Assembly (NCBI RefSeq): GCF_028747785.1
Contig: NZ_CP118158.1
Span: 2,914,001-2,978,000, forward strand
Reading direction: 5' to 3'
DNA from: Halosimplex aquaticum
Lineage (GTDB): Archaea > Halobacteriota > Halobacteria > Halobacteriales > Haloarculaceae
DNA length: 64,000 bases
The position numbers and the translations under genes are program-made. Shown here piece after piece: positions 5,154 to 14,810 of the stretch. How positions within the stretch are numbered: position 1 is the first letter of the stretch; every line of letters begins with the position of its first letter. The notes beneath the pieces are model-generated. The model worked only from the letters and a program-made list of their open reading frames with translations, was not told where the DNA came from and ran no database searches.

Positions 5154-5545
5154 CCTGCTCGGCCAGCCACGCCAGCAGCCCCTTCTGGGCGTGCAGGCGA
5201 TTTTCGGCCTGGTCCGGCAGCCACCTTTTTCTCATCGGGTCGCTCACTTCGTTCGCGACCACTCTTCGAAAAACGTGGGCGAAAAAGCGCGCCTCGCTCC
5301 GCTCGGCGCGGGACTATTCCTGCTCGGCCAGCCACGCCAGCAGCCCCTTCTGGGCGTGCAGGCGATTTTCGGCCTGGTCCGGCAGCCACCTTTTTCTCAT
5401 CGGGTCGCTCACTTCGTTCGCGACCACTCTTCGAAAAACGTGGGCGAAAAAGCGCGCCTCGCTCCGCTCGGCGCGGGACTATTCCTGCTCGGCCAGCCAC
5501 GCCAGCAGCCCCTTCTGGGCGTGCAGGCGATTTTCGGCCTGGTCC
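5154..5545. repeat. 165-bp tandem repeat duplicating the argF 3' end
   Basis: Three copies start at 5154, 5319 and 5484. The first two are full 165-bp units and appear identical; the third, inside argF, is 62 bp and ends at 5545. Each unit holds the last 62 bp of argF coding sequence (codons for WDQAENRLHAQ... to the penultimate codon) plus about 103 bp containing a hairpin element (5221-5318 and 5386-5483, copies 3 and 4 of the family). At the outermost junction the frame reads LAEQD-stop, while the live gene ends LAEQE-stop. This suggests an original end was displaced by duplication. Confidence 0.9.
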
Positions 5546-6372
5546 CAGACGATGGCGTTGTCGCTCTCGATGACCGTGTCGGTGACCTCCTCGCCACGGT
5601 GGGCGGGCAGGCAGTGCATCAGCGCGCGGTCGCCGAGCAACTCGGGGGTGATCTGGAACCCGTCGAACGCCGCGAGCTTCTGCTCGCGCTCGTCCTCCTG
5701 GCCCATGCTGACCCAGACGTCCGTGTACACCACGTCGGCGTCCGCGACGGCCGCCTCGGGGTCTGTCGTCACGTCGGGCGCCGGGCCGAGGCCGTCGGCG
5801 CGGTCCAGTACGTCGTCGTCGACGCCGTAGCCCTCGGGCGTCGCGACGGTCAGGTCGAGCCCGCACATCGCCGACCCGAGGACGAACGACTGACAGACGT
5901 TGTTCCCGTCGCCGACCCACGCCACGGAGACGTCGTCGTCGAAGTGCTCCGTGATCGTCAGCAGGTCGGCGAGCGTCTGGCACGGGTGGGCGTCGTCGGT
6001 CAGCGCGTTGATGACCGGCACCTCCGCGTACTCGCCGAGTTCGACCACGTCGTCGTGGTCGAACACCCGCGCCATCACGAAGTCGACGTAGCGGCCCAGC
6101 GCTCGCGCGATGTCTTTCACCGGCTCTCGGCCGTGTAACCCGATGTCGTCCGGGCCGAGAAAGACGGCGTGGCCGCCGAGTTGGGTCATCCCCGTCTCGA
6201 AGGAGACGCGCGTCCGGGTCGAGGGCTTCTCGAAGATCATCCCGAGCGTCTGGCCGCCGAGGAGGTCGCTCGCACCGCTCGCCTCGTAGTCGGCCTTGAT
6301 GGTGGCCGCGCGGTCGAGGACGGTCGCCAGTTCGTCGGTCGTGAGGTCGTCGACGTCGAGGAAGTTGGTCAT
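5479..6372 (-). CDS. argF: Ornithine carbamoyltransferase
   Basis: The 297-residue enzyme transfers a carbamoyl group to ornithine to make citrulline, the step before argininosuccinate synthase. The carbamoyl-phosphate site STRTR is at 51-55, HPCQ at 129-132, and HCLPAHRGEE lies near the C-terminus. It is the last gene of the lysW-argF unit and its ATG overlaps the lysK stop by 4 nt. Its last 62 bp are repeated twice downstream in a tandem array; the active gene is intact, and only the final residue appears to have changed (Glu instead of the Asp encoded at the outer junction). Confidence 0.95.
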   Translation of the reverse strand: MTNFLDVDDLTTDELATVLDRAATIKADYEASGASDLLGGQTLGMIFEKPSTRTRVSFETGMTQLGGHAVFLGPDDIGLHGREPVKDIARALGRYVDFVMARVFDHDDVVELGEYAEVPVINALTDDAHPCQTLADLLTITEHFDDDVSVAWVGDGNNVCQSFVLGSAMCGLDLTVATPEGYGVDDDVLDRADGLGPAPDVTTDPEAAVADADVVYTDVWVSMGQEDEREQKLAAFDGFQITPELLGDRALMHCLPAHRGEEVTDTVIESDNAIVWDQAENRLHAQKGLLAWLAEQE

Positions 6373-7463
6373 AGTAGTTGCTCCGTCGCGTCTTCGAGGA
6401 CGGCCACGGCGCGGTCGTACTCGGCCAGCGAGACGTGCTCGTCCGGTGCGTGGTCGAGGTCCGAATCGCCGGGGCCGTAGGTCACCATCGGACAGTCCCA
6501 CTCCTGTGCGTAGATGTTCATATCACTTGTGCCGGTCTTGCGCAGGAGTCGGGGGTCGCCGCCGGTCTTCCGGACAGCCGCGCGGAAGGCCCGTCCGGCC
6601 GCAGTCCGCGGGTTCTGCATCACCGGCTCGACCGCGTCGTGCCAGTGGACGGTGCCGTTCGTGAGGTGACCGTCGGCCATCTCGTGCACCTCTTCGGTGG
6701 TGTACTCCGGCGGAACGCGCAGCTGCACGTCGACCGTCGCCTCCACGGAGAGCCCGTCGTCGGTGATGCCGCCCTCGAAACTGATGGGCTTGCACGTGAC
6801 TCGCTCGAAGACGGGCACCCACTCGTCGTGGCCGAACTCCTCCTCCACGTCGGACCACCAGCCGATGGCGTCCTGGATGGCGTTGTTCTCCGGGCGCGAG
6901 GAGTGTCCCGACTCCGAGGTCGCGACGTACGTCCCCGCGAGCAAACCGCGATATCCCAGCGTGATGCCGTCCCAGCCCGACGGCTCGCCGTTGACCACGG
7001 CGTCCGGTTCCGCTTCGCGGTCCTCGACGAGGTGGCGAGCGCCCCGGGAGTCGACTTCCTCGCCGACGACGCCGACGAACGAGGCGCCCGTCCGGACGGC
7101 CGCGACGGCCATCGAACACAGCGGCCCCTTCGCGTCGACGCTCCCGCGGCCCCACAGCAGTTCCTCGCCGTCCTCGCCCTCCTCGACTCGGACCGGGATG
7201 TCGCCCGGCACGGTGTCGATGTGCGACGTGAGGAGGACGCCGTCGTCCGCGGGGGCACGGACGTTGCCGACCTCGTCGACCCACACCTCGCGGTCGTGGG
7301 ACTCGAAGAACTCGACGAGGACCTGCGCGGCCGCTTCCTCCTCGCCGGTCACCGACGGGGTGTCGACCACGTCGATCAGGAGTTCGCGGGCTTCCTCGTC
7401 GGCGGGCAGGTCGGGGGCCGGTTCCTCGCCGTCGTCCGCATCGGCTCCCTCGCCCTCACTCAT
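6369..7463 (-). CDS. lysK: [LysW]-ornithine/lysine hydrolase (M20 family)
   Basis: The 364-residue zinc hydrolase releases ornithine (or lysine) from the LysW carrier. Metal ligands are visible as H81 and D83 in SHIDTVPG, D110 in GRGSVDAKG, and an EE pair in GVVGEEVDSRG. C-terminal KTGTSDMNIY and DHAPDEH are typical of the LysK/ArgE branch. It begins 8 nt before the argD stop and ends 4 nt into argF. The first 25 residues are an acidic tail before the domain begins. In this cluster, next to argF, ornithine is the expected product. It is also called argE in haloarchaeal annotations. Confidence 0.9.
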   Translation of the reverse strand: MSEGEGADADDGEEPAPDLPADEEARELLIDVVDTPSVTGEEEAAAQVLVEFFESHDREVWVDEVGNVRAPADDGVLLTSHIDTVPGDIPVRVEEGEDGEELLWGRGSVDAKGPLCSMAVAAVRTGASFVGVVGEEVDSRGARHLVEDREAEPDAVVNGEPSGWDGITLGYRGLLAGTYVATSESGHSSRPENNAIQDAIGWWSDVEEEFGHDEWVPVFERVTCKPISFEGGITDDGLSVEATVDVQLRVPPEYTTEEVHEMADGHLTNGTVHWHDAVEPVMQNPRTAAGRAFRAAVRKTGGDPRLLRKTGTSDMNIYAQEWDCPMVTYGPGDSDLDHAPDEHVSLAEYDRAVAVLEDATEQLL

Positions 7464-8589
7464 CGCCCACGACCTCCGCCATGGCGTCGACGACCCGGTC
7501 GACCTCCTCCTCGCTGACGGTCAGCGGCGGGAGGAACCGGACGACGGTGCGGCCGGCCGGCAGTGCCAGGACGCCGTGGTTCAGCGCGAGCTGCTTCAGC
7601 GCGCGGTTCGCGCCGCGGCCGACCTCGACGCCGACCATCAGCCCCTCGCCGCGCACGTCGCGCACCTCGTCGCCGAGCTCCTCGTCTAGGCGCTCCTGCA
7701 TGTACGCGCCCACGTCGCCGGCGTGGCCCGGCAGGTCCTCCTCGACGATGGTCGAGACGGTCGCCCCCGCCGCCGCGGAGATCACGGGACCGCCCGAGAA
7801 CGTCGAGGCGTGGCTGCCGTAGTTGTCCGCGATCCAGTCGCGACACAGCGTCGCCCCGACCGGGAAGCCGTTGCCGAGACCCTTCGCGGTCGTCAGAATG
7901 TCCGGCGTGACGCCGGACTGCTCACAGGCCCACAGCGTGCCCGTCCTGCCCATGCCGGTCTGGACCTCGTCGAAGATGAGCGCCGCGCCCGCCTCCTCGG
8001 TCACCTCGCGGGCGCGCCGGAGGAACTCCGCGGAGGCGGGGTTGATGCCGCCCTCGCCCTGGACGGGTTCGACGATGACGGCCGCCGTCTCGTCGTCGAC
8101 GGCGTCGGCGAGTTCGTCGCCGTCGTCGTAGGGGACGAACTCCACGTCGCCGATCAGCGGCTCGTAGGGCTTCTTGTACTTGCTCTTCCACGTCGTCGCG
8201 AGCGCGCCCATGGTCCGGCCGTGGAACCCCTTCATCGTCGCGACGATCTTCGAGTTCCCGGTGGCCGAGCGGGCGAACTTCAGCGCCGCCTCGTTGGCCT
8301 CGGTCCCCGAGTTGCAGAGCCACGTCTTGCCGATGGGGTCCGGCGCCGAGTCGGCGAGGCGCTCGTACAGCGCCGTCCGCGCGGCGTTGGGGTACGACGC
8401 CTGGACGTAGGTCAGCTTCTCGAACTGCTCGGTGACGGCGTCGTGGACGGCCTCGTGGCCGTGGCCCAGCGGGACGCAGGCGTAGGAGGCACCCATGTCG
8501 AGGTACTCCGTGCCGTCGTCGCCGTACAGGACTGTGCCGTCGCCCGATTCGATCTGGATGGGTTTCTCCGAAAAGACGAATCCGCTCAT
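7456..8589 (-). CDS. argD: [LysW]-amino acid semialdehyde aminotransferase
   Basis: The 377-residue class III PLP aminotransferase acts on the LysW-bound semialdehyde. Motifs are CNSGTEANEAALK at 92-104, GFHGRTMG at 121-128, FDEVQTGMGRTG at 206-217, and the PLP lysine K236 in TTAKGLGNG. The start MSGFVFSEKP at 8589 overlaps the argB stop as ATGA; the longer open frame up to 8790 lies inside argB and is rejected. It may work on ornithine and lysine intermediates as in other LysW systems; the surrounding genes point to ornithine. Confidence 0.92.
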   Translation of the reverse strand: MSGFVFSEKPIQIESGDGTVLYGDDGTEYLDMGASYACVPLGHGHEAVHDAVTEQFEKLTYVQASYPNAARTALYERLADSAPDPIGKTWLCNSGTEANEAALKFARSATGNSKIVATMKGFHGRTMGALATTWKSKYKKPYEPLIGDVEFVPYDDGDELADAVDDETAAVIVEPVQGEGGINPASAEFLRRAREVTEEAGAALIFDEVQTGMGRTGTLWACEQSGVTPDILTTAKGLGNGFPVGATLCRDWIADNYGSHASTFSGGPVISAAAGATVSTIVEEDLPGHAGDVGAYMQERLDEELGDEVRDVRGEGLMVGVEVGRGANRALKQLALNHGVLALPAGRTVVRFLPPLTVSEEEVDRVVDAMAEVVGDE

Positions 8590-9440
8590 TGTGTCTCCTC
8601 CGTGTCCGCAGTATCTGAAAGTGCCGACGCGTGGACGTGCGTGCCGCCGCCCGAGAGGGCCGAGAGGATCGGATCCTCGGCGTTCGCGTCCGCGACCACC
8701 ACTTCGTCGGCGCCGCCGTCGAGCGCTTCCTCGACGGCCATCACCTTCCGCTCCATGAAGCCCTCGGCGGCGTCCTCCAGGTCCGCCCACTCGGCGGGCG
8801 TCTCGACGGACTCGATGAGGGTGGAGGGGTCGTCGGGGTCCGCGTAGATCCCCTCGACGTCCGTCAGCAGGACGAGCGTCGCCTCCAGCCCACCGGCGAT
8901 GTGGGCCGCCGAGCGGTCGGCGTCCGTGTTGACCGGCACCACTTCGTCGTCGTCCTTGCCGGCCATCGGCGGCGACGCGACGGGCGTGTAGCCGTCGTCG
9001 AAGAGCGTCTCCAGCAGGTCGGCGTTGACCCGCTTGATCGTCCCGGAGTGGTCCCCGCGACGGATCTTGCGCTTGCCGTCTTCCATGACGCGCACCGCGG
9101 ACTTTCGCGGGCCGTAGAGGAGCTTGCCGTCGACGCCCGATAGTCCGACGGCGTCGACGCCCTGGCTCTGGAGCCCCGCGACGAGTTGCGTGTTGAGGTG
9201 GCCGAACACCATCTCGAACACCTCCATGGTCTCCTCGTCGGTGAACCGGCCGACGACGCCGGAGGGGGTTTCGACGTACTCGGGCTCTATCCCCAGGCGT
9301 TCGAGCGTCTCGTCGACGGCCGTGGAGCCGCCGTGAACCACGGCGACGTCCTCTCCGTCTTCACGCAGCGATGCAACGTCCGCCAGTGCGCCCGCGGGGT
9401 CGACCGCGCGAGCGCCGCCGATCTTGACGACTGTAGTCAC
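8586..9440 (-). CDS. argB: [LysW]-glutamate/aminoadipate kinase
   Basis: The 284-residue amino acid kinase phosphorylates the LysW-bound side-chain carboxylate. It begins MTTVVKIGGARAVDP with the nucleotide-binding GG loop, has VVHGGSTAVDETL at 34-46, and a C-terminal VNTDADRSAAHIAGGL typical of the N-acetylglutamate kinase superfamily. An acidic Ala/Ser/Thr tail extends past the fold (SDTADTEETQ). It follows argC by 14 nt and overlaps argD by 4 nt. Specificity for glutamate rather than aminoadipate is inferred from the arginine genes around it. Confidence 0.92.
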   Translation of the reverse strand: MTTVVKIGGARAVDPAGALADVASLREDGEDVAVVHGGSTAVDETLERLGIEPEYVETPSGVVGRFTDEETMEVFEMVFGHLNTQLVAGLQSQGVDAVGLSGVDGKLLYGPRKSAVRVMEDGKRKIRRGDHSGTIKRVNADLLETLFDDGYTPVASPPMAGKDDDEVVPVNTDADRSAAHIAGGLEATLVLLTDVEGIYADPDDPSTLIESVETPAEWADLEDAAEGFMERKVMAVEEALDGGADEVVVADANAEDPILSALSGGGTHVHASALSDTADTEETQ

Positions 9441-9454
9441 GAAAAATCACCTGC

Positions 9455-10495
9455 TCAGGGGGCCCCGACCGGGTGGAGGCCCTGGAACTCCAGGCCCGCC
9501 GTCTCCTCGACGCCGAGCGCGACGTTGGCGGCGTGGACCGCCTGCCCCGCCGAGCCCTTCATCATGTTGTCGATCGCCGAGAAGACGACGAGGCGCTTGT
9601 TTCCGGGGTCGAGTTCGAACCCGACCTCCGCACGATTCGTCCCCGCGACCGCCTTGGGCTCGGGGTAGCGATACACCCCGCCGCCGCCCGCGACGAGTTC
9701 GACGAACGGCTCGTCCTCGTACTCGCCGCGGTACGCCCCCCAGAGGTCGCCCTTCGAGACGGGCTCGCCCGGGAAGACGTGACAGGTCGCGCTCGCGCCG
9801 CGGATCATGTCCACCGCGTGGACGGTGAAGGAGACGTCCAGCCCGAGGAACTGCTCGATCTCGGCCTCGTGGCGGTGCCCCGTCGGCGCGTACGGGCGGA
9901 CGACGCCCGAGCGTTCGGGGTGCGAGGAGGCTTCCCCGCCCCCTGCACCGCCCTCCGAGGAGCCCACCTTCACGTCGACGACGACCTGCTCGTCGCCGGT
10001 GAGGATGCCGTCCTCGACGAGCGGCTTGAGCCCCAGAATGGTCGCCGTCGCGTTACAGCCGCCGGAGGCGATCAGATCCGCGCCCGGCAGTTCGTCGCGG
10101 GTCAGTTCGGGCAGCGCGTACACGGCGTCCTCGAGCAGTTCCGGGCGCGTGTGCCCGTCGTACCACTCGTCGTACTGCGCTTCCGTGTCCAGCCGGAAGT
10201 CCGCCGAGAGGTCGACGACGGTGTCGGCGGCCTCCTGGAACTGGTCGATCTGCTCCATCGAGACGCCGTGGGGCGTCGCCGCGAACAGCACGTCGACGCT
10301 CTCCAGGTCCTCGGGTGAGGAGAAACGCAGGTCCAGGTCGCGGAGGTTCGGGTGGGCGTGGCCCACCGTCTTGTTCTCCTTCGAGCGGCTGGTCGCCTGT
10401 GCGACCTCGAACTCGGGGTGGCCGGCGAGCAGGCGCAGTAGCTCGCCGCCCGTGAAGCCCGAGCCGCCGACGACCGATGCGGTGTATTCACTCAT
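9455..10495 (-). CDS. argC: [LysW]-glutamate/aminoadipate semialdehyde dehydrogenase
   Basis: The 346-residue NADPH-dependent reductase acts on the LysW-bound acyl phosphate. The N-terminal Rossmann loop is VVGGSGFTGGELLRLL and the catalytic cysteine is C147 in SGGCNATA. Downstream segments VKVGSSEGG and HRHEAEIEQ match the ArgC/LysY dimerisation domain. Start 10495 (MSEYTASVVGG) overlaps the argX stop as ATGA; the longer frame to 11011 is an argX shadow. It is central to the LysW-argF unit. Confidence 0.93.
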   Translation of the reverse strand: MSEYTASVVGGSGFTGGELLRLLAGHPEFEVAQATSRSKENKTVGHAHPNLRDLDLRFSSPEDLESVDVLFAATPHGVSMEQIDQFQEAADTVVDLSADFRLDTEAQYDEWYDGHTRPELLEDAVYALPELTRDELPGADLIASGGCNATATILGLKPLVEDGILTGDEQVVVDVKVGSSEGGAGGGEASSHPERSGVVRPYAPTGHRHEAEIEQFLGLDVSFTVHAVDMIRGASATCHVFPGEPVSKGDLWGAYRGEYEDEPFVELVAGGGGVYRYPEPKAVAGTNRAEVGFELDPGNKRLVVFSAIDNMMKGSAGQAVHAANVALGVEETAGLEFQGLHPVGAP

Positions 10496-11394
10496 GTGGC
10501 TGCCTCTGCGGTTTCCTCGTCGGCACCCGCGCGCTCCTCCAGCCAGTCGACGACTTCGGCGGGCACGTCGACGTCGGTGACCTCGTTGAGCGCCTTGAAC
10601 TCGACGGTGTGGTTGACCTCGTGGACGGTGTAGCCCGACGGGTTCCCGTCGTCGTCCACGCCGGTCTCCATGAGGTCGATGCCGAGCAGGCCGCCGCCGA
10701 CCGCGTCGCTCGCGGTCTCGACCAGCTCGCGCATCTCGTCGGTGATCTCGATCTCGGCGGTCTCGGCGCCCTTGGCGGCGTTGGTCAGCCAGTGGTCCGA
10801 CGAGCGGACCATGCCGGCGACCGGCTCGCCGTCGACCGCGACGATGCGGATGTCGCGGCCCGGCTTGTCGACGAACTCCTGGATGTAGAAGACCTTGTGC
10901 TCGTAGTGGCCCAGCGTCTCCTTGTGTTCCAGGATCGCCTCGGCGGCCGACCGGGAGTCGATCTTGGCCATCAGGCGCCCCCACGACCCGATCACGGGCT
11001 TGAGGACGCACGGGTAGCCGAACTCCTCGATGCTCTCGAGGGCGGCGTCTTTCGTGAACGCCACGTCCGTCGTCGGCGTCGGAACGCCGGCCCCCTCCAG
11101 CGCGAGACTGTTTTTCACCTTGTTCGCGCAGACCTCCGCCGTCTCGGCGGCGTTGACGACCGGGATGTCGTAGGCCTCGGCGAACTGGGTGGCGTACAGC
11201 GAGCGGCTCGTCGCCAGACAGCGGTCGACGAGCACGTCGACGTCCTGCATGTCCTCGGGCGCGTCCGAGAGCCCGAAGCGCTGCTTGCGCACGTCGACCT
11301 TGACGACCTCGTGGTCGCGCTCACGCAGCTCGTTCAGCAGGAGCTTCTCGTCCCGGCGGATCCGGGAGTAGAGGATGCCGACGTTCACTCTCAC
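10492..11394 (-). CDS. argX: Glutamate--LysW ligase ArgX (ATP-grasp)
   Basis: The 300-residue ATP-grasp ligase attaches glutamate (or aminoadipate) to the C-terminal Glu of LysW. Recognisable parts are NVGILYSRIRRDEKLL at the start, the ATP-binding LKPVIGSWGRL, QEFVDKPGRDIRI, and a C-terminal HEVNHTVEFKALNEV. The start codon is GTG at 11392-11394, chosen because it forms a GTGA overlap with the lysW stop, the same 4-nt coupling used at three other junctions in the unit. A second GTG two codons on is possible. The position next to lysW supports partnership. Confidence 0.92.
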   Translation of the reverse strand: MRVNVGILYSRIRRDEKLLLNELRERDHEVVKVDVRKQRFGLSDAPEDMQDVDVLVDRCLATSRSLYATQFAEAYDIPVVNAAETAEVCANKVKNSLALEGAGVPTPTTDVAFTKDAALESIEEFGYPCVLKPVIGSWGRLMAKIDSRSAAEAILEHKETLGHYEHKVFYIQEFVDKPGRDIRIVAVDGEPVAGMVRSSDHWLTNAAKGAETAEIEITDEMRELVETASDAVGGGLLGIDLMETGVDDDGNPSGYTVHEVNHTVEFKALNEVTDVDVPAEVVDWLEERAGADEETAEAAT

Positions 11395-11555
11395 TCACCC
11401 CAGTCCTCTTCGAGCTCCGGTGCCGTCTCGAGGACTGGAGGTTCGGTGTCGACGACTTCGAGCTCCGCACCGCAGGTGCCACAGTCGACGATCTCTCCTA
11501 TCTCGATGCCGTCGTGCAGGGTTACCTCCGCCCCGCACTCGACGCATTCTGCCAT
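11391..11555 (-). CDS. lysW: LysW amino-group carrier protein
   Basis: The 54-residue acidic protein carries biosynthetic intermediates on its C-terminal glutamate. It has two CxxC pairs (Cys4/Cys7 in CVEC and Cys25/Cys28 in CGTC) for zinc and ends with the diagnostic EDWGE. Start 11555 lies about 30 nt downstream of a TATA-like CTTTAAGTA box, so the message is probably leaderless. It is the first gene of the unit lysW-argX-argC-argB-argD-lysK-argF. The GTGA overlap with argX indicates translational coupling. It is short enough to be missed by length-limited gene finding. Confidence 0.95.
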   Translation of the reverse strand: MAECVECGAEVTLHDGIEIGEIVDCGTCGAELEVVDTEPPVLETAPELEEDWGE

Positions 11556-11771: not shown

Positions 11772-13277
11772 TCAGACATAGTCGGCCACCTCCGATTCGA
11801 GTCCGTCGAGCGCGCCGGCCACGGCGTCCCGCCGGTCGGCCACCGCCGATTCGTCGGCGGACAGGCGCCCGCGGGCGCCCTCGATCTGGTCGGCCACCGC
11901 GTCGGGCGCGGGGCCGCCCGCCGAGTCGCGCATCGCCACGCTCTCGACCGGGTCGAGCGTCGCCGCCAGCGTCTCCTCGTCGACGTACGCCGTCAGCGGT
12001 TCGCCCAGGATCTCCTCGGCCGCCGCTTCCAGTTCGGCGATTTCCGGGGCGTCCCGTCCGGGTTCGAGGTCCTCGGCCACCGCGGCCACGACCTCGTGGG
12101 CCGTCCGGAAGGGGACGCCGGCCATCGCCAGGCGGTCGGCGACGCCGGTCGCCGTCGAGAACCCGGCCGCGGCCTCGTCGGCGAGTACGTCCTCGTGCCA
12201 CTCCGCCGTGGTCAGCGCCCCCGTCGCCACCTCCAGCGCGGGCGGCACCGCGTCCACCGCGGTCCAGGCCGGCGGCGTCGCCTCCTGCAGGTCGATGTTG
12301 TACGACCGGGGCAGCCCCTTCAGCGTCGTCAGCAGCCGCTGGAGCGCGCCCTGGGCCTCGCCGGCCGTGGCGCGGACGATCTCCAGCGTGTCGGGGTTCT
12401 TCTTCTGTGGCATGATCGACGACGTCGACGCGTAGTCGTCGCTGATCTCCAGGTAGTCCCGGCCGCTGTAGACGACGAGGTCCTCGGCCATGCCGGACAG
12501 CGTCGTCGCCAGCGTCGTCAGGGCGCTGGTCGTCTCGACGAGGAAGTCGCGCGAGGACGTGGCGTCCATCGAGTTCGCGACCGTGCTATCGAAGCCCAGC
12601 AGTTCCGCGGTGCGCTCGCGGTCCACGTCGAAGGGCGTCCCCGCGAACGCCGCCGCGCCGAGCGGCGACTGGTTCGTCGTGTCCAGCGCGGCGAGCAACC
12701 GCTCGGTGTCGCGCGCCAGCGGCCCCTCGTAGGAGAGGATCCAGTGGGCCACGGTCACCGGCTGGGCGTACTGCAGGTGGGTGAACCCGGGCATCACCGT
12801 CTCGGTGTGGTCGGCGGCGGCGTCGAGCAACTGCTCACGCGCGCCGACCACAGTTTCGAGCGCCTCGAACAGGTCCGAACGCAGGCGATACCGGATACAC
12901 GTCGCCACCTCGTCGTTGCGTGAGCGGGCGGTGTGCATCCGGCCGCCCTCGGGGCCGACGCGCTGGATCACGGCGGTCTCGATGGCCTCGTGCACGTCTT
13001 CGGCGTCGGGCAACTCGCCGTGGCCCGCCGCCTCGACGTCGTCCAGCGCCGCCAGGATCGCGCTCGCGTCCTCGTCGTCGATTATGTCCTGCTCGGCCAG
13101 CATCACGACGTGGGCGCGGTCGACCTGCAGGTCCGCCGCGAAGATCCGCTCGTCGGCGGCCAGCGAGGACATGAACCCGCGCGCCGGTCCGCCGGAGAAG
13201 CGGTCCCGGCGGATCGCGGTCCCGCCGGTCTCTCCGTCGGCCTCGCCCGCCTCAGGGGTGTCCTCGCTGTCGGTCAT
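11772..13277 (-). CDS. argH: Argininosuccinate lyase
   Basis: The 501-residue enzyme splits argininosuccinate into arginine and fumarate, the last step of arginine synthesis. The superfamily signature SSIMPQKKNPD is at 286-296, the active-site histidine is H167 in GFTHLQ, and HTARSRNDEV is at 115-124. An acidic 20-residue N-terminal tail precedes IRRDRFSGG. It starts 1 nt after the argG stop, so both genes must share a transcript. Length is slightly above typical because of the acidic tail and inserts. Confidence 0.95.
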   Translation of the reverse strand: MTDSEDTPEAGEADGETGGTAIRRDRFSGGPARGFMSSLAADERIFAADLQVDRAHVVMLAEQDIIDDEDASAILAALDDVEAAGHGELPDAEDVHEAIETAVIQRVGPEGGRMHTARSRNDEVATCIRYRLRSDLFEALETVVGAREQLLDAAADHTETVMPGFTHLQYAQPVTVAHWILSYEGPLARDTERLLAALDTTNQSPLGAAAFAGTPFDVDRERTAELLGFDSTVANSMDATSSRDFLVETTSALTTLATTLSGMAEDLVVYSGRDYLEISDDYASTSSIMPQKKNPDTLEIVRATAGEAQGALQRLLTTLKGLPRSYNIDLQEATPPAWTAVDAVPPALEVATGALTTAEWHEDVLADEAAAGFSTATGVADRLAMAGVPFRTAHEVVAAVAEDLEPGRDAPEIAELEAAAEEILGEPLTAYVDEETLAATLDPVESVAMRDSAGGPAPDAVADQIEGARGRLSADESAVADRRDAVAGALDGLESEVADYV

Positions 13278-13278
13278 C

Positions 13279-14541
13279 TTATTCGTCCGTGTCTGCGGCG
13301 TCCCCGCCGCCGTCCGTCGCCGCCTCGGCCTGCTTCGCCGCCACGTTCTCGGCGACGCGGTTGGCCAGGCGCGACTGGAAGCCGTGGTACTTCGCGACGC
13401 CCGTGGCGTCGTCCTGTTCGATGTCGTCGGTGACCGCTTCCTCGTTGAACGAGGCCGCCGACTCGCTGTAGACCGCGTACTCGCTGTCGCGGCCGACCGG
13501 GCGGGCCTGCCCGCCGTCGAGCTTGACGGTCACGGTCCCGGTGACCTTCGTCTGGGTCTGCTCGATGAACCCTTCGAGCGCCTTCGTCAGCGGCGCGTCG
13601 ACGAGGCCCTCGTAGCCCTTCTGGGCCCAGCGCTGGTCGACCTGCTGTTTGAACGCGCGCTCTTCCTGCGTCAGGACCAGGCTCTCCAGGGCCTCGTGGG
13701 CGTTCAGCAGCACCGTCGCGGCCGGGTGCTCGTAGTTCTCGCGGACCTTCAGCCCGAGCATGCGGTCCTCCATGATGTCCGAGCGGCCGACGCCGTGCTT
13801 GCCGGCGGTCTCGTTGAGCTGCTCGATGAGTTCGACGGCGCCGATCTCTTCGCCGTCGAGCGCGACCGGGACGCCCTGCTCGAAGGTGAGTTCCAGCGTC
13901 TCCGTCTCGGCGCTGCCGGGCGCGGTGGTCCAGTCGTAGATCTCCTCGCCGGGGACGTAGGCGGGGTCTTCGAGTTCCGAGCCCTCGACCGAGCGGCTCC
14001 AGAGGTTCGTGTCGATGCTCCAGCGGCCGCCGTCGCCGCCCTCGACGGGCAGGCCCTTCTCCGCGGCGTACTCGCTCTCCCACTCGCGGGTGAGGCCGAG
14101 TTCGCGGACCGGCGCGAGCACGTCAAGATCCGAGGCGCGCCAGACGGCCTCGAAGCGGAGCTGGTCGTTGCCCTTCCCCGTGCAGCCGTGGGCGAGGGCG
14201 CTACAGCCCTGTTCCTCGGCGACTTCGAGGATGGCGTTGGCGATGACCGGGCGCGCGAGTGCGGTGCCCAGCGGGTAGCCCTGGTAGGTGCCGTTGGCCT
14301 TGACGGACTGGAGGCAGAGTTCGGCGAACTCCTCCTTGGCGTCGACGACGTAGTGTTCGAGACCGAGTTCCTCGGCGGTCTCCTCGGCTTCGTCGAACTC
14401 CTTGGCGGGCTGGCCGACGTCGACGGTGACGCCGATGACGTCGTCGTAGCCGTACTCTTCCTTGATGAGCGGGACGCAGACTGTCGTGTCGAGCCCGCCG
14501 GAGAAGGCGAGCGCGACGGTGCCGGATGGGTCGGATGTCAT
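13279..14541 (-). CDS. argG: Argininosuccinate synthase
   Basis: The 420-residue enzyme joins citrulline and aspartate using ATP. The PP-loop FSGGLDTT is at 13-20, and GNDQLRFE and the AxxDGG-like GGDGGRWSIDTNLW segment also fit the family. Start 14541 (MTSDPSGTVALAFSGG) is preferred; the open frame continues to 14736, but that extension is Arg/Pro-rich and unlike coding sequence. An acidic C-terminal tail ends DAADTDE. The gene is preceded by a leader ORF, a hairpin and a promoter (14614-14810) that may control the argGH unit. Confidence 0.95.
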   Translation of the reverse strand: MTSDPSGTVALAFSGGLDTTVCVPLIKEEYGYDDVIGVTVDVGQPAKEFDEAEETAEELGLEHYVVDAKEEFAELCLQSVKANGTYQGYPLGTALARPVIANAILEVAEEQGCSALAHGCTGKGNDQLRFEAVWRASDLDVLAPVRELGLTREWESEYAAEKGLPVEGGDGGRWSIDTNLWSRSVEGSELEDPAYVPGEEIYDWTTAPGSAETETLELTFEQGVPVALDGEEIGAVELIEQLNETAGKHGVGRSDIMEDRMLGLKVRENYEHPAATVLLNAHEALESLVLTQEERAFKQQVDQRWAQKGYEGLVDAPLTKALEGFIEQTQTKVTGTVTVKLDGGQARPVGRDSEYAVYSESAASFNEEAVTDDIEQDDATGVAKYHGFQSRLANRVAENVAAKQAEAATDGGGDAADTDE

Positions 14542-14613
14542 GTGTTGTGTGGTGACTGTCGGGTGAGATGTCCGCCCGGAACCCGACGGTGGCGGGAGTC
14601 GGAAACGAGACGT

Positions 14614-14664
14614 GGCGACGATGGGAGTAGTAATTTCGGGCCTAACGGCCCGGTCGTCGTCGCC
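14614..14664 (-). promoter_or_regulatory. Candidate attenuator structures before argG
   Basis: On the minus strand a 6-bp hairpin CGGGCC-GTTA-GGCCCG occupies 14637-14652 and carries the leader ORF stop codon at its loop. The Arg-codon segment GGCGACGA (14664-14657) is perfectly complementary to TCGTCGCC at 14621-14614, which would enclose the hairpin. A ribosome on the Arg codons would block that long pairing, while one at the stop would open the hairpin. There is no U-run directly after the hairpin. Complementarity is easy to find in GC-rich DNA, so this is only a candidate. Confidence 0.35.
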
Positions 14665-14776
14665 GCGGTCGTCGGGCGTCGACGCCGGTCGGCGCCGCGC
14701 TCCGACGCGCGAAAAGTCGGTCGGCGGACCCGCCACTCGACGCGGCCTGCGTGCCGGGAGCGCGGGTCGTAGCCAT
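14642..14776 (-). CDS. Arg-rich leader ORF before argG
   Basis: A 44-residue ORF begins with ATG at 14776 and ends at TAG 14642-14644. Its last eleven codons hold seven arginines (ARRPRRRRPGR), four in a row, mostly CGA. A TATA-like box CTTTTAGTAG is centred about 30 nt upstream of the ATG, so by the usual haloarchaeal spacing the mRNA would begin at this start codon. The ORF is in a different frame from argG and stops about 100 nt before it. It matches no protein family. It may be a regulatory leader peptide, or chance reading of GC-rich leader DNA. Confidence 0.4.
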   Translation of the reverse strand: MATTRAPGTQAASSGGSADRLFARRSAAPTGVDARRPRRRRPGR

Positions 14777-14800
14777 GTACCTGCTACTACCGAGAACTCG

Positions 14801-14810
14801 CTACTAAAAG
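14801..14810 (-). promoter_or_regulatory. TATA-like promoter of the argG leader
   Basis: The minus-strand box CTTTTAGTAG lies in an AT-richer island and is centred about 30 nt before the ATG of the leader ORF, far upstream (about 265 nt) of the argG start. No equally good box was seen closer to argG, implying a long transcribed leader, unusual for a haloarchaeal gene. Confidence 0.5.

Follow-up and report, generated by a model that had tools for sequence, protein, structure and literature searches.

Does the arginine operon of Halosimplex carry a leader that reads the supply of its own end product? The question is raised by the region ahead of argG in the window, that is, the whole stretch of 64,000 nt analysed here, which comes from a haloarchaeal genome of 5.16 Mb and for which the initial annotation proposed a possible arginine attenuator. 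The arg locus lies entirely on the minus strand of the window. Its first gene, argG (13279–14541, minus strand; argininosuccinate synthase, 420 aa; PF00764 and PF20979), is followed by argH (11772–13277, minus strand; argininosuccinate lyase; PF00206 and PF14698) and by lysW/argW, argX, argC, argB, argD, argE and argF (5479–11555, minus strand; NCBIfam TIGR01206, TIGR02144, TIGR01850, NF010661, TIGR00707, NF003367 and TIGR00658). With nine genes in one direction and argG at their head, argGH-lysW-XCBDEF apparently forms an operon. Rfam covariance models for T-boxes, riboswitches and other families gave no credible match between positions 14400 and 15000 of the window. As argued below, the operon is probably controlled by a cis-acting, amino-acid-specific leader-peptide switch that works by ribosome-mediated attenuation.

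The anatomy on which the annotated attenuator was based was verified in full. The TATA box of the promoter, here called P1, is TTTTAGTA (14802–14809, minus strand), and its centre lies 29.5 nt before an ATG at position 14776, in agreement with the TATA-like box annotated about 30 nt upstream of that codon. The transcript start is predicted at the ATG or within ~4 nt of it. The ATG opens an upstream open reading frame (uORF; 14642–14776, minus strand) that has homologues in other Halobacteria and comprises 44 codons, 11 of them Arg codons including six CGA. Base for base, the sequence agrees with the annotated 44-codon ORF carrying seven Arg among its last 11 residues: the leader peptide, MATTRAPGTQAASSGGSADRLFARRSAAPTGVDARRPRRRRPGR (44 aa), closes with RRPRRRRPGR, encoded at 14645–14674 on the minus strand. 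The stop codon, TAG (14644–14642), does lie inside the hairpin CGGGCC-GTTA-GGCCCG (14637–14652, minus strand), where it overlaps the loop and the 3′ arm. The distance from the TATA box to argG, given as about 265 nt, measures ~264 nt when taken to the argG ATG at 14541. An untranslated spacer of 100 nt (14542–14641, minus strand) separates the uORF stop from that ATG; it holds no second promoter in the genus, as no TATA-like box is found 27–40 nt ahead of the argG ATG in Halosimplex.

The same promoter arrangement recurs among relatives. Upstream regions of argG were collected from 56 named contigs and further whole genomes, and 135 of them, from families across the class, were retained after removal of near-duplicates. 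When a promoter matrix (PWM) trained without regard to Arg content was applied to this set, a strong TATA box was found in 112 of the 135 regions, and an ATG followed 30–36 nt past the start of the box in 89% of these 112, as compared with 5.8% after shuffling. Such spacing is that of leaderless genes, and the uORF is apparently leaderless itself; most of the trpC control genes have a box at an equal leaderless distance from their own ATG. In relatives the uORF has a median length of 30 codons (range 21–53 aa), and its end lies about 117 nt before argG. The bodies of the peptides diverge strongly between families, both in sequence and in length, and the conserved part is the Arg run.

The initial annotation had suggested that argG upstream regions of many Halobacteria be compared for a conserved Arg-rich ORF and hairpin, and the outcome of this comparison was strongly positive for both elements. 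An ATG-initiated uORF was scored as Arg-rich if it contained at least four Arg codons per 12 near its end. Such uORFs were present in 119 of the 132 non-redundant regions that make up the core Halobacteria set (90%) and in 7.4% of dinucleotide shuffles, with the reservation that argG upstream sequences share ancestry and the counts are therefore non-independent events. Upstream regions of trpC, hisG and pheA, used as controls, contained one in 2 cases out of 48 (4.2%). On the strength of these two comparisons, the occurrence of an Arg-rich uORF ahead of argG by chance is excluded. On average the last 12 uORF codons include 5.0 Arg codons, against 1.4 in shuffles. In relatives these codons cluster four to seven codons ahead of the stop (61–78% per position) and peak at −21 to −12 relative to its first base; a few uORFs among the 135 regions are shifted or unusual.

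The manner in which the run varies is also informative. For the final 48 nt of the uORF, 100 cases were compared by reading frame: the Arg codons fell in the frame of the uORF in 85 and in another frame in 7, and 8 were ties. Where Arg codons differ by a single base, the change is synonymous in a proportion of 0.55, the neutral expectation being 0.41. Taken at the level of sequence comparison, these patterns argue that the run is under selection as codons. Codon choice is peculiar as well: CGA accounts for 377 of the 785 Arg codons of the uORFs, and CGA and CGG together for 580, whereas of the 229 Arg codons within codons 1–100 of argG, 157 are CGC and only 15 CGA. The window shows the same bias: 6 of the 11 uORF Arg codons are CGA, but in its arg genes CGA makes up 4%. 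CGA and CGG are seldom used by arg genes; rare codons in the run would suit a device that monitors tRNA charging, but they might also have been favoured because they prevent unwanted pairing.

The hairpin is likewise a regular feature of these leaders. With uORFs picked by promoter and ATG only, a Watson–Crick stem of at least 5 bp spans the uORF stop in 83% of cases, as compared with 4.8% of shuffles, and a clear hairpin is absent from 4 of the 135 regions. In the commonest geometry, counted from the first base of the stop, the 5′ arm extends from −7 to −3 and the 3′ arm from +2 to +6; the loop measures 3–8 nt. Compensatory changes occur in the arms, GC being replaced by CG at pair 3 in 8 of 127 sequences and CG by TA at pair 4 in 13 of 127. 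Owing to the differences in loop length, a first alignment could not be used for pair counting, and covariation was scored on an alignment restricted to equal loops; for its 32 sequences, which are related and offer few pairs, the score exceeded those of all 500 shuffles and of all slid versions. The placement of the stop within the hairpin and the fixed geometry fit a scheme in which the position of the ribosome would decide whether the hairpin folds in the cell.

Alternatively, the conserved element could be one of DNA rather than of RNA: the palindrome CGGGCC-N4-GGCCCG, located past the promoter, might be an operator bound by a repressor, and the Arg ORF a by-product of a CGA/CGG-rich site. 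The near-invariance of the palindrome core, which reads GGGCC/GGCCC in 75 of 131 hairpins, and the ease with which Arg codons arise in high-GC DNA would be accounted for in this way. The variable loop, however, would shift the phasing of the half-sites, and the Arg run lies outside the palindrome, holds the frame of the uORF and varies synonymously. Conservation of the positions of ATG and stop, together with the Phe and Trp runs at pheS and TrpRS described below, further speaks against an operator, which we consider very unlikely.

Directly 3′ of the hairpin, the leader continues with 17 nt devoid of G (14620–14636, minus strand), rich in pyrimidines and A, and unstructured. This tract is kept in relatives with little variation in length (median 17 nt, interquartile range 16–18, over 131 hairpins; median 2 at random downstream positions), and argG begins about 75–160 nt further on. 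A tract of about 17 nt appears to match the RNA held within RNA polymerase as a hairpin emerges, and our guess is that it serves as a pause or termination element inside the enzyme. The U-tract or T run that follows bacterial terminator hairpins is not present, and its place is taken by A, C and U without G. Neither arm of the hairpin is enriched for an alternative partner (3′ arm, 15% versus 14% in shuffled sequences; 5′ arm, 41% versus 56%). A classical arrangement of mutually exclusive antiterminator and terminator was rejected for this reason, and it is possible that a single hairpin stands in for the pair. The complementarity over 8 nt that had been reported between the Arg run and the sequence just past the hairpin does exist, between GGCGACGA (14664–14657) and TCGTCGCC (14614–14621, minus strand), but it is weak in relatives, where a complement of at least 7 nt is found in 43% of cases versus 19% of shuffles, and its role is doubtful.

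From these elements a mode of action may be proposed. If Arg-tRNA were scarce, the first ribosome would stall on the Arg codons located 12–21 nt before the stop. Stalled with its A site on an Arg codon between −12 and −18, this ribosome would reach approximately to the stop and mask the 5′ arm, from −7 to −3; the hairpin would then remain unfolded and RNA polymerase would read on into argGH and the remainder of the operon. If arginine were ample, the ribosome would get to the stop and be released, and the hairpin could fold while the G-free tract fills the polymerase. The folded hairpin would in turn lead to pausing and termination, either directly or via FttA/aCPSF1, a termination factor of archaea, acting on the untranslated spacer. 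With folding prevented in starvation and permitted in plenty, the proposed response has the right sign for a biosynthetic operon.

Is termination at such a hairpin plausible in Halobacteria? In a reporter system of Haloferax volcanii, a T stretch proved to be a strong terminator, with 95% termination, while a hairpin motif derived from a coding region and lacking a T stretch gave 59% termination in vivo (PMC7237163); a hairpin without a U-tract can therefore work in this group. Furthermore, FttA is regarded as the likely archaeal polarity factor (review PMC12548453). Against attenuation it must be counted that the tract is not a T stretch, that the arms have no conserved alternative partner and that a second promoter precedes argG in many genomes, as must the four regions in which no clear hairpin is seen, the few shifted or unusual uORFs and the shared ancestry of the sequences.

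The uORF might also sense arginine and act on translation, without any premature termination, by altering the RNA structure around the argG start or the supply of ribosomes to it, or through reinitiation. A leaderless uORF followed by an untranslated 5′ region in which there is no T-stretch terminator would be compatible with an output of this type, as would the weak complementarity of the Arg run to downstream sequence. However, the uORF stop lies ~80–155 nt from argG, and translational coupling in H. volcanii fades over 30–40 nt (review PMC12548453), which makes coupling less likely. Moreover, hairpin and tract are fixed, whereas the stretch that separates the hairpin from argG can be anything between 78 and 150 nt long, and the arms showed no conserved pairing with the spacer downstream. 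A translational output is thus, in our opinion, unlikely. The variant with reinitiation at argG was rejected, the spacing being in excess of the range published for H. volcanii (PMC12548453).

Attenuation is the preferred reading. When 16 whole genomes were searched with a covariance model combining Arg run, hairpin and tract, the argG leader was recovered in 11. The model's only other match, located within a CDS resembling a DHH/RecJ-type protein, was judged to be due to chance. The leader is absent from two deep families within the class (f5 and f11), and no comparable Arg leader was found in 15 readable argG upstream regions of non-halobacterial relatives from the same phylum. A second TATA box, 27–40 nt before the argG ATG, occurs in 60 of the 132 genomes (~45%; control windows, 4.8%), and the leader consequently cannot govern all argG transcription there; judging from the box, argG can also come from its own leaderless transcript in these genomes. 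Holders of the second promoter are the Natrialbaceae and most Haloferacaceae, with named loci from Halorubrum, Halogeometricum and Halolamina among others, and the hairpin lies 142 nt from argG in genomes that have this promoter, compared with 96 nt in those that do not. In the Natrialbaceae and Haloferacaceae the second leaderless promoter has the form GAATTTAAGTCC before argG; blocks reading GGTTAGC..CGCTCTA or TATAGGCATCTCT are conserved ahead of it and look like a regulator site. Halosimplex, Halobacterium, Natronomonas, Halorhabdus and Halorientalis lack the second promoter, and the uORF leader should therefore be part of every argG message in these genera.

A separate argG promoter in ~45% of genomes, combined with a conserved ORF that has a promoter of its own, might equally be expected if the uORF were a stand-alone leaderless gene ending at a terminator and encoding a small trans-acting protein rich in Arg, its proximity to argG being incidental or historical. 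However, outside the Arg run the peptides differ greatly, with sizes from 21 to 53 aa, the uORF always stands in front of argG, and no further copy was revealed by a model of its 3′ part. The residue of the run also fits the downstream gene in three unrelated cases. A protein acting in trans is accordingly highly improbable.

The two further cases of such a fit concern aminoacyl-tRNA synthetase genes. By dRNA-Seq, short uORFs were found in long 5′-UTRs of H. volcanii, including those of pheS (26 aa) and of tryptophan-tRNA ligase (23 aa) (Babski et al. 2016, PMC4983044, Table 2); these are the same two genes at which we find matched Phe and Trp runs in relatives. Attenuation and arginine are not discussed by Babski et al. 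(PMC4983044), and argG is not among the uORFs of low isoelectric point that they list. All uORFs in their Table 2 have low isoelectric points, a property read there as a sign of real genes, and a basic, Arg-rich leader could therefore have been overlooked. We inspected the regions upstream of pheS and TrpRS in 16 haloarchaeal genomes. A uORF of 26–29 aa ending in GFGFFFA or similar, with the overall form MASEP...GFGFFFAx, precedes pheS in 12 of the 16, whereas uORFs with a Phe run occur in 0.3% of shuffles, in 1 of 48 control regions and in 3 of the 132 argG regions. This Phe-rich leader apparently corresponds to the one known from bacterial pheST. Upstream of one TrpRS paralogue, a uORF containing WRW or WRWR (once WRWH) was present at all six loci inspected. 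At four loci read in detail, the TrpRS uORF has a conserved AGCGGACAGT-like stretch. The source genome of the window possesses all three leaders, with pheS near 2.492 Mb and TrpRS near 2.579 Mb. Matched leader peptides were not found before trpC, hisG and pheA (48 loci). Each time, the residue of the run is the amino acid of the downstream gene (Arg, Phe, Trp), which argues for a codon-based sensor and against a GC-rich by-product; we regard this as the strongest argument.

The matched runs bear equally on the possibility that arginine is sensed by the nascent peptide in the ribosome, with stalling at the stop at high arginine as in fungi, rather than through uncharged tRNA. A uORF end of RRPGR or RRPGL, conserved before the stop in many families, might be taken as the signature of such a peptide. 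In several other families, however, the end is RRAL, RPAR or RPGSL, the peptide upstream is not conserved, and tRNA charging is favoured both by the bias towards rare codons and by the Phe and Trp runs at the matching genes. Sensing by the nascent peptide thus appears extremely unlikely.

Taken together, the conserved anatomy and the matched leaders of pheS and TrpRS support the attenuator proposed initially, a role to which anatomy and evolution both point. We further consider it marginally probable that ribosomal attenuation specific to single amino acids is general and ancestral in haloarchaea, with leaderless uORFs carrying Arg, Phe or Trp runs in control of three targets (the arginine operon, PheRS and a TrpRS) and with a one-hairpin terminator and G-free tract in the place of antiterminator and U-tract. 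If true, this general system would be the first of its kind in Archaea and would imply that transcription and translation are tightly coupled on leaderless mRNAs. Should the argG switch work as proposed, archaea would regulate genes via the position of the ribosome on nascent RNA, from leaderless mRNAs and by coupled transcription and translation, and the origin of the mechanism would be either independent or very old. The argG leader, with its Arg codons swapped for Phe or Trp codons, would also be a clean reporter of archaeal coupling and termination in tractable haloarchaea.

How does this leader compare with known systems? Full-text searches of open-access literature found no report of an archaeal attenuator for arginine or any other amino acid, and as far as could be found a leader-peptide switch of the bacterial kind is undescribed in archaea. 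In fungi, the arginine attenuator peptide encoded by the arg-2/CPA1 uORF also links arginine to a uORF ahead of an arginine-biosynthesis gene. The fungal peptide, however, combines a conserved body with a small number of Arg codons and stalls when arginine is high, whereas the argG leader has a variable body and a conserved Arg run; a conserved peptide body of the fungal type was not found, only the Arg run being conserved between families. Leader-peptide attenuation is textbook knowledge in bacteria, and the argG leader shares with the bacterial attenuators (trp, his, leu and the Phe-rich leader of pheST) a short uORF in cis, a run of cognate codons, a matching gene downstream and the use of rare codons. 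In E. coli trpL, the stop codon lies within the first hairpin, as it does in the argG leader. The argG leader differs from these systems in being archaeal, in its leaderless uORF without a ribosome-binding site, in its one hairpin without a conserved antiterminator partner, in the 17-nt G-free tract that replaces the U-tract and in the second argG promoter of ~45% of genomes. Another parallel is offered by E. coli tnaC, which is Rho-dependent and in which the position of the ribosome at the end of the leader peptide decides whether the termination factor gains access to an untranslated spacer. tnaC, a catabolic system, is switched on by free Trp acting through the nascent chain, whereas the argG leader precedes a biosynthetic operon and would rely on a codon run. 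Rho is absent from archaea, where FttA is its likely counterpart (PMC12548453).
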